Below, piece by piece: positions 47,001-50,000 of a stretch of DNA of 64,000 nt (its first letter is position 1; each line of letters starts with the position of its first letter). Location: the NCBI GenBank assembly GCA_029706075.1, contig JAINUG010000213.1, positions 1,036,837 through 1,100,836 on the forward strand. Reading direction: 5' to 3'. Position numbers and translations under genes: made by a program. The notes below the pieces were generated by a model. That model saw only the letters and a list, made by a program, of their open reading frames with translations. It had not been told where the DNA came from and did not search any database. The DNA comes from Aldrovandia affinis. Taxonomy: Eukaryota > Chordata > Actinopteri > Notacanthiformes > Halosauridae.

Positions 47001-50000
47001 CAAGAATGCACTGCTCTGATATGGTATGTGGCAGTCGCTTAGACATTAAAAGTAAAACAAACGCCCAGGAGTTATCACGTCCGCTTCACCTTACCGATAA
47101 AACCGCTTAAGAACGTGTGTGAACAGTGTGCGTCCTTGGGTGAAAATGGTACACAATACAGATTTTCTCTTTCAGTGATGTAAAGGTGGTTGACTATTTC
47201 TCATTTTTTTTGTTCGTGTCTGCCTGTTTATTTGTGTCTGTGTTTGCCTGTGTGTGTGTGTGGCACGGCTGGAAGTGTAGTGTAATGGTTAGGGAGCTGG
47301 GCTTTTAACTTGCAGGTTCAGTTCGCAGGTGGGGCACTGCTGTTGTACCCTTGAGCAAGGTACTTAACCTGAATTGCTTCAGTAAAATATCCAGCTGTAT
47401 AAATGGATTGTATGTAAAGAAATGTACACTGTGTAAGTCGCTCTGGGTAAGAGCGTCTGCTAAATGCCTAAAATGTAAAAATGCCTAAAATGTTATTTGA
47501 GTGTTATCTTTCTCAGTTTAAAATGTTTGAATTGTGATTATGGCTTTTTTTGTCCGTCAGATAACTTCCAGACCGCTCAGCTGCTGGCGTTGATATTGGA
47601 GCTGCTGACGTACTGTGATGTGTGCCCTATCTCAGGTGCAGGGGAAAGACCCGGCGGTGGAAATCACGCAGGACCCCATCGACGAGTCCGAGGAGGAGCG
47701 CTTCGAGGAGATGCCCGAGACCAGCCACCTGGTGGACCTGCCGCCCTGCGAGCTGGCCAAGCTGGAGGAGATCGCCGATCTGGTGACCTCGGTGCTGTCC
47801 TCGCCCATCCGCCGCGAGAAGCTGGCGCTGGCGCTCATGAGCGAGGGCTACATCAAGAAGCTGCTGCAGCTCTTCCAGACCTGCGAGGACCTGGACAACC
47901 GCGAGGGCCTGCACCACCTGTATGAGATCGTGCGCGGCGTGCTCTTCCTCAACAAGGCGGCGCTCTTCGAGGTCATGTTCTCGGACGACAGCATCATGGA
48001 CGTGGTGGGCTGCCTGGAGTACGACCCGGCGCTGGTGCAGCCCAAGAGGCACCGCGAGTTCCTCACCAAGACCGCCCGCTTCAAGGAGGTGATCCCCATC
48101 ACGGACTCGGAGCTGCGGCAGAAGATCCACCAGACCTACCGCGTTCAGTACATCCAGGACATCATCCTGCCCACCCCCTCCGTCTTCGAGGAGAACTTCC
48201 TGTCCACGCTCACGTCCTTCATCTTCTTCAACAAGGTGGAGATAGTCAGCATGCTGCAGGTGAGAGGGGGGGGGGGGTCGAACAGTGGGCACAGGTGAGA
48301 AGCGCCTCTCCCTATTGGTGCTTCTGCAAGCCTCCGCATGCCCGAGGTTGGGGGAGTTGTTCCCTTTTTCCACTCCACGTCATTGCGCTGGAAGTCCCCC
48401 GAGGACACACTGATCAATAACAGTGCCTCAAACGGTAGTCATTTTGCCCCAGTGTCTTCACTTCAATTATACTGTATCAGTTCAGTTATACTGTACTTAA
48501 ACTAACAAATTAGGTAGTTAGAAATGGATACTTTTGACATTCAATTTCTATTCTCTTTTTAATTGTCTTCCAACTCATTTTACAATAGACAAATTGTGTG
48601 CGTTGCTTCTTCATTATTCCTCAGGAATATTCTGGTCTCTTTTTAGACAAGTTGCCATCATTACATTACATTACAGGCATTTGGCAGACGCTCTTATCCA
48701 GAGCGACGTACAACAAAGTGTTAACCGTAGTCAAGAACAGTTTAGCTGAAAACCACCCTAGCGGGAAGTACAGTTCCAGGTGCTAGGAGCAACCACATAG
48801 TTAAACTAGGACCCTGTAGGTAAGTTTGTAGCCACAATTCAAAGGTAACCTGCCGCAATTGCATTTCTCAGCCATTAAGTCTGGCAAAAACACAACCCGT
48901 ACTTGGAAAAATCGTATCACCATTTTTACTATGGCGGTTGCCATCCCTAACTTTCACCATGGGAAGTGTTCTCTATCTAATTTTTGTACCAGGAAATGTG
49001 TGAAGTCATTTTGTTTGTCGCCCGTTTTAAAGAACCGTAGTGAGGGGATTGAAAAACAACTTGATTGGTGTGTTTTTGTGTGTCTGCATCAGAGGAGTCC
49101 ACTGCAGAAAGTGTGGTTATTGGTCATGCTTTATATAGAAGTGTAATGAGTGCTTCATTGGATAAGATTCAGATGTTGGGGAGCAAGATGGCGCCAGCAC
49201 CACATTTGAGTCACAGCAAATTGACACTAAGCAGATGGTGTCTGATCTGATGATCATAAATACATTTTGATAAATTATTCAACATTTCTATCTGGTCAAC
49301 TGCAGTTATCAGATTTCAGTCGCTTGGAGTCAGACAACATATATTTTTTAATGTATTTTTAAAGTTCAAATCGAGGCGGATGTCTCATATGTTGCCAAGA
49401 TATCATACTAAAATGATGGGGTTATCCAACTTTACAAGTTCCTGGTACAACACTGGAAACATTTTTTTGGTTCTCGGTAATAGACTGTGCTAGCTTAGCA
49501 CTTTGGTTTTAATCATCTCTGTAAATGATAGCATAGTGAATGAAATAATAATTTGTGAATTTACATAGCTCCTAGGCTTTTACGAGGCTACTTACTTGGT
49601 GGCTTCATAAGATGGCAAATATAGCTGCGTTCTATGCGCAGAGAATATTTAATTCTCCATGTTTCAGCATTAAGTACTACAGAACTGGAAATGTGCTCCA
49701 CGTAAACATGCGTGTGATGAACCAGGAACTGGGGAAACTGGTCGCTTAGGAACCCATAGGCCTGTTGTTCCACTGGTCTCTGGGTTTATTTTTCCACAGT
49801 GTGGCAGTATGGAAAATATAATTGTAGTACTGAGCAAACTGTTAATGTGCAGCACAGTTTATATATAGGCCTCCAGTGTTTCCCCCAACTAACTAATCAC
49901 ACTTCTAAGTTATGCTTTGCAGCAGACATTTTTGTTTTGGTTACATTGTGGCAACTCGGAATCCTCAAATACATTTGACCACAAGATGCATCCGTTTAAC

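Follow-up and report, generated by a model that had tools for sequence, protein, structure and literature searches.

The window, that is, the whole 64,000-nt stretch analyzed here (C1258:1036837-1100836 of a 1.22-Gb assembly of 2576 contigs, which was also the genome searched), harbors a gene for PP4 regulatory subunit 3. The parts of the gene and of the copy described below lie on the + strand of the window, whose SINE type and gene structure suggest a fish. Exon 4 (47636..48259, 624 nt) matches the Pfam family PP4R3 (PF04802, E 1.7e-71), and PDB entry 4wsf yielded a short match to the gene's protein (E 0.0023). Exon numbers are those of an earlier note on this DNA, and the gene is assigned at the level of PPP4R3. 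Exon 11 (54256..54414, 159 nt) has its 3′ end placed from the reading frame, aided by the human protein. A PPP4R3 paralogue resides on contig C1767. The window also contains a long tandem minisatellite (4469-5244; self-alignments mostly at 87-93%) and another tandem region (62978-63675).

BLASTN aligned positions 47267-47615, just upstream of exon 4, to 53967-54310 with 88.3% identity over 358 columns (E 1.9e-115). This bears out the earlier claim that 47268-47635 repeats 53968-54310 and corrects the start of the repeat to 47267, which coincides, as the same note had held, with the 5′ end of a SINE, common to its family. Read from left to right, the copy consists of the intron-3 SINE (47267..47477), a second tail unit (to 47492) and then the copied intron 10 end (together 47478..47560), which carries TTATTTG, the right-hand target duplication of the source SINE, and an acceptor (GGCTTTTTTTGTCCGTCAG), and finally 50-56 bases taken from the start of exon 11 (47561..47616); intron 3 then resumes with its own last bases, including the exon 4 acceptor (47617..47635). 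The corresponding source segments are the intron-10 SINE (53967..54171), the second tail unit with the intron 10 end (54172..54255), and the 5′ part of exon 11. All 50 exon-derived bases up to 47610 are identical to exon 11; beyond them TACTGTG faces TTCTGCG, so that the exact end, probably near 47616, is uncertain by about six bases. The copy thus ends inside exon 11, as previously described, but takes about a third of it (50-56 of 159 nt) instead of half. When the genome was queried with 47268-47635, the source ranked second, after the query itself, and the other 39 matches listed stopped by query base 229, i.e., within the SINE and its tail (best 40 of 2529 candidates scored). Query 47480-47635 gave three candidates, all scored: itself, the source (94%), and the paralogous exon on C1767 (83%). 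Outside the SINE, the copy's relatives found in the genome search were therefore only the source and the paralogue's exon.

Outside the exon, 18 of 280 aligned positions distinguish the copy from its source, in addition to 6 indels. The SINE part accounts for 14 differences in 198 positions and 4 indels, and the second tail unit plus the intron 10 end for 4 in 82 (the first 15 of which are tail) and 2 indels. Differences of this kind make misassembly unlikely, and the junction between intron 3 flank and SINE is independently present on C1767 (see below); we consider an assembly artifact extremely improbable. The direction of copying can be read from the context of each segment. Exon 11 continues the protein, and TTATTTG stands on either side of the intron-10 SINE with its doubled tail but, in the intron-3 copy, on the right side only; intron 10 is thus the donor and intron 3 the recipient.

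The head of the SINE may be tRNA-derived, with no tRNA match listed by Rfam up to E 1 in 47100-47700, and its tail contains a UnaL2-type LINE 3′ element (47420..47473; Rfam RF00436, 59.9 bits against a gathering score of 55). The doubled tail (47462..47492) occurs exactly in copy and source only within the whole assembly, with three further places within two mismatches. Other members of the family lie at 46510-46721, in the same intron and orientation as the intron-3 SINE, and after exon 11, at about 54640-54850. Short target duplications are a feature of this family: 9 of 38 genomic rows showed flanking matches of at least 7 bp, compared with 3.1% when flanks were swapped, while 3 of 38 lacked any match (two of the 38 rows, both L006, represent one element). 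The search for such duplications at the ends of the intron-3 copy, which the earlier note had proposed, returned nothing convincing. Around the whole copy only TGTGTG was found, a low-complexity match off the boundary; the 5′ boundary of the intron-3 SINE shared no match of at least 5 bp with the stretch behind its tail; and an alternative boundary at 47204 (CTATTTCTCA / CTATCTCAG, set by eye) gave just a 5-bp exact match. Template jumps of a LINE enzyme between RNAs, as presented in the accessible text of PMC2104539, were rejected as a source of the intron-3 copy on the same grounds, since the expected target duplications were not found around it.

Two mechanisms had been put forward for the copy: 3′ transduction, in which the intron-10 SINE was transcribed beyond its end and retrotransposed whole into intron 3, and a DNA-level copy anchored in SINE homology. 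The former would explain why the 5′ end of the copy is that of the SINE, why the doubled tail came along, and why SINE and flank are indistinguishable in divergence. However, a run of six T residues at 54241-54246 precedes exon 11. Such a run would stop a pol III transcript and, as noted before, speaks against one, although a pol II transcript is compatible with it. Moreover, the UnaL2-type tail is internal, the end of the copy has no tail repeats, no convincing target duplication surrounds SINE plus flank, and C1767 bears the intron-3 SINE without the exon-11 copy. According to the available portion of PMC3747384, LINEs of the UnaL2 kind need to recognize the 3′ end of the RNA stringently, and UnaL2 itself ends in TGTAA repeats; a transcript ending inside exon 11 would fit this poorly. 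On these sequence features 3′ transduction appears quite unlikely, and the SINE-anchored copy is favored over it.

The C1767 locus bears on the order of events. Beyond the query itself, a search with 46735-47266 returned one strong match, C1767:6206119-6206180, which covers exactly the 62 bp preceding the SINE (47205..47266) at 97% identity; the other rows listed were shorter or weaker matches to the TG-rich part of the query (79-100% identity). On C1767 the SINE comes after these 62 bp, in a match of 282 columns at 94%; its tail is of the ordinary TGTAA type, and exon-11 sequence is absent. The insert occupies about 6206110-6206424 and has a repeat as its left flank. Four related repeats were fetched (those among the 40 other rows listed that lie on the + strand and whose match reaches query base 264), and all four cross the target without the insert, three with TAAAGTTAGAT and one with TTAAGTTAGAT. 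A 35-nt filler built of AACTAAAGTT-like, local target-like pieces sits just 5′ of the insert and is likewise absent from all four, which indicates that the 62 bp and the SINE arrived jointly, with or after the filler. TAAAGTT occurs on both sides of the insert, with its TAA possibly deriving from the TGTAA tail. The flank is 68% pyrimidine and free of AG, and full-length, high-identity versions of it elsewhere are confined to intron 3, which is thus its likely source. Absence of AG is what one expects from a branch point down to its acceptor, as the accessible part of PMC1431707 describes, and the flank behaves accordingly; 47205-47266 is likely the old pyrimidine tract of exon 4.

Judged from its structure, the C1767 insert is a 5′ transduction, i.e., a joint insertion of the element and its upstream sequence with a target duplication, and differs in this from the 3′ transduction considered by the earlier note. 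The alternative that the 62 bp are native to C1767 was rejected. There is no duplication at the SINE boundary there, TAAAGTT lies outside the 62 bp, an empty site exists, and the AG-free, pyrimidine-rich character of the flank, as expected before exon 4, contradicts it as well. Speculatively, the inserted RNA might stem from a lariat tail, given that the 5′ end of the 62 bp is about 12 nt from a branch-point candidate. Among the papers listed in a literature search confined largely to open-access text, none was seen to report a SINE 5′ transduction by a UnaL2-type system; this is not proof of absence.

Presence of the intron 3 flank and SINE on C1767 without exon-11 material suggests that the SINE was probably in intron 3 first and that a SINE-anchored templated copy was added later, an order weakened by the possibility that reverse transcription rebuilt the tail on C1767. 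Dating of this order by a clock was rejected, as the sites are too few: intron 3 and C1767 differ at 7 of 209 SINE and 2 of 62 flank positions, and copy and source at 14 of 198, 4 of 82 and, in the exon, 0 of 50. At positions ungapped in all three SINEs, private changes number 6 in intron 3, 8 in intron 10, and 0 on C1767 (intron 3 versus C1767, p 0.03). The 6 substitutions and the 7-bp deletion of the intron-3 SINE are absent from the intron-10 copy, and the C1767 copy lacks the intron-3 SINE's differences as well; error-prone resynthesis or chance may account for the private changes in intron 3, on which we do not rely. SINE subfamily markers were also rejected as a discriminator that would prove separate insertions in introns 3 and 10, and no shared marker proved them. 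With the flanking pattern used, the 7-bp deletion has 6 exact places in the assembly. The SINE loci from the genome search are the best matches to the intron-3 SINE and hence a biased subfamily sample, and 20 stretches of 10 kb contributed only 3 of the 11 aligned full SINE copies, the others being 7 from the window and 1 from the paralogue's region.

The copy also bears on the splicing signals before exon 4. The copied acceptor opens an exon at 47561 and the native one at 47636, 75 nt apart, and splicing from exon 3 to 47561 leads to an in-frame TGA after ten codons, the stop expected of a poison extension, all as the earlier note had it. We scored acceptors with a small matrix built from the PPP4R3 gene and its paralogue, with the native exon 4 and source exon 11 acceptors outside the training set and the remaining 22 each left out in turn; exons with unplaced starts were omitted (51114 in the window, 3993 and 6941 in the paralogue, and the paralogue's exon 10, which was not found). 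On this gene-pair matrix the copied acceptor scored 10.9 bits, the native exon 4 acceptor 8.8, and the source exon 11 acceptor 9.4, within a range of 1.6 to 16.4 (n = 24), and the copied acceptor ranked best and the native one second among 25 AGs scored in 47150-47640. Hence, the copied site is somewhat stronger, as previously judged by eye. The claim that exon 4 was left with only a weak remnant was not supported as stated, given that its acceptor falls within the range of real ones and has a branch-point candidate at the usual distance.

That candidate, which the earlier note does not mention, is CTGAC (47605..47609), which consists of exon 11 coding bases (CTG ACG) and matches the branch-point consensus, YTNAY. 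Its A lies 28 nt upstream of exon 4, and no AG intervenes. Exon 4 is preceded by 34 nt free of AG, in which CTGAC is the only full YTNAY at a distance of at least 15 nt, although a chance match is not rare. Before the copied acceptor, and likewise at the source, the AG-free stretch contains no full YTNAY; since 14 of the 24 scored acceptors also lack one in the scanned stretch, this absence is weak evidence and the branch-point argument is weakened. Removal of SINE and copy in silico gives an AG-free stretch of 100 nt, with TTGAC at 93, CTCAT at 83, and TTTAT at 56. The first of these (47190..47194), thus 93 nt before exon 4 in the absence of SINE and copy, is a candidate for the old branch point by consensus match only.

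We favor dominant splicing at the native exon 4 acceptor via the borrowed CTGAC, with the copied acceptor as a minor poison site; against mainly native splicing stands the higher score of the copied acceptor. This acceptor, intact at 10.9 bits, best of the 25 AGs and leading to a TGA after ten codons, could instead be a used and regulated poison site that tunes the amount of the subunit. However, the native acceptor looks sound as well, its AG-free stretch containing a branch point of consensus type, and a regulated site seems very doubtful. Exon 4 begins with donor-like bases (CAG|GTGCAG, 47633-47641), so that 47561-47635 is readable, in principle, as a 75-nt cassette exon. Exon 4 itself comprises 624 nt, and its skipping would thus keep the frame and lose 208 residues.

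These observations can be arranged into one course of events, to which we assign a probability of roughly 0.5. A SINE with a UnaL2-like tail would have entered intron 3 close to its end, in TG-rich sequence some 20 nt short of exon 4, so that the exon 4 acceptor became separated from its former branch point and pyrimidine tract. The SINE and 62 nt of upstream intron 3, which were inserted jointly on C1767, would then have been retrotransposed there, presumably from pre-mRNA. Later, repair or replication at the intron-3 SINE may have found homology in the like-oriented intron-10 SINE, 6.7 kb off, continued copying from there past the intron 10 end into exon 11 for 50-56 bases, and then returned to intron 3. 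At present, the native AG would be mainly used, with CTGAC from two exon 11 codons as the branch point, and the copied acceptor would compete with it, its use bringing in the stop codon. The uniqueness of the copy outside the SINE, and a doubled tail exact in source and copy only, support this course. No substitution marks a switch point inside the SINE. Divergence of the SINE (14/198) and of the following sequence (4/82) shows no difference (Fisher p 0.60), so SINE and flank may have been copied in one piece.

A different route to the same structure would be a pre-mRNA fragment (SINE tail, intron 10 end, and exon 11 start) whose reverse transcript patched a break downstream of the intron-3 SINE. 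Sense orientation, origin in the same gene, unspliced sequence, and the lack of a clear target duplication are in line with such a patch, and the accessible text of PMC5110952 presents class 2 templated insertions without target duplications, proposed as RNA-derived patches. Yet the exact SINE 5′ end still demands SINE homology or an earlier SINE, and DNA and RNA templates are not separable from sequence; we rate an RNA patch as rather unlikely. Returning to the SINE-anchored copy, the most economical functional reading would be that exon 4 borrows its branch point while the poison acceptor competes. A bolder version, advanced tentatively and somewhat doubtful, is that the SINE weakened or broke the exon 4 acceptor and that the SINE-guided copy re-armed it, with CTG ACG of exon 11 as the exon 4 branch point; the same SINE would have exported its upstream flank and imported a splice-site-bearing downstream flank. 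None of the papers listed in the literature search was seen to report an exon fragment re-arming an acceptor, with the same reservation about coverage and proof of absence. If the reading is right, dispersed SINEs can move ready-made splice signals and exon pieces within a gene, and one repeat-mediated accident may offset another. The locus offers a natural experiment on acceptor choice, in that this PP4 subunit gene has a pair of acceptors separated by 75 nt of which one brings in a stop, and the C1767 locus suggests that a UnaL2-tailed SINE can carry upstream host intron RNA.

Parts of this course are reminiscent of known systems, as far as the accessible parts of the respective reports describe them. 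In dog FAM161A, a SINE at -15/-16 moved the branch point to more than 300 nt from the acceptor and caused exon skipping (PMC3976383). The placement just before an acceptor and the displacement of the branch point by more than 300 nt are alike; there the exon is skipped, whereas here a new candidate branch point came with the added exon sequence. LINE-1 5′ transductions similarly co-insert upstream host RNA with a target duplication (PMC13174262), but the unit moved to C1767 is a UnaL2-tailed SINE joined to an unspliced piece of intron. Class 2 templated sequence insertions share the short templated patch without target duplication (PMC5110952); in PPP4R3 donor and target belong to one gene and share a SINE, at which one end of the patch lies. 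Finally, template switching between Alu elements, which generates chimeric elements, likewise uses two similar SINEs as the foothold for a proposed replicative switch (PMC6902434). Those events are copy-number gains in patients, whereas the copy described here runs about 140 bp past the SINE within one gene, is diverged by several per cent, and ends in an exon.
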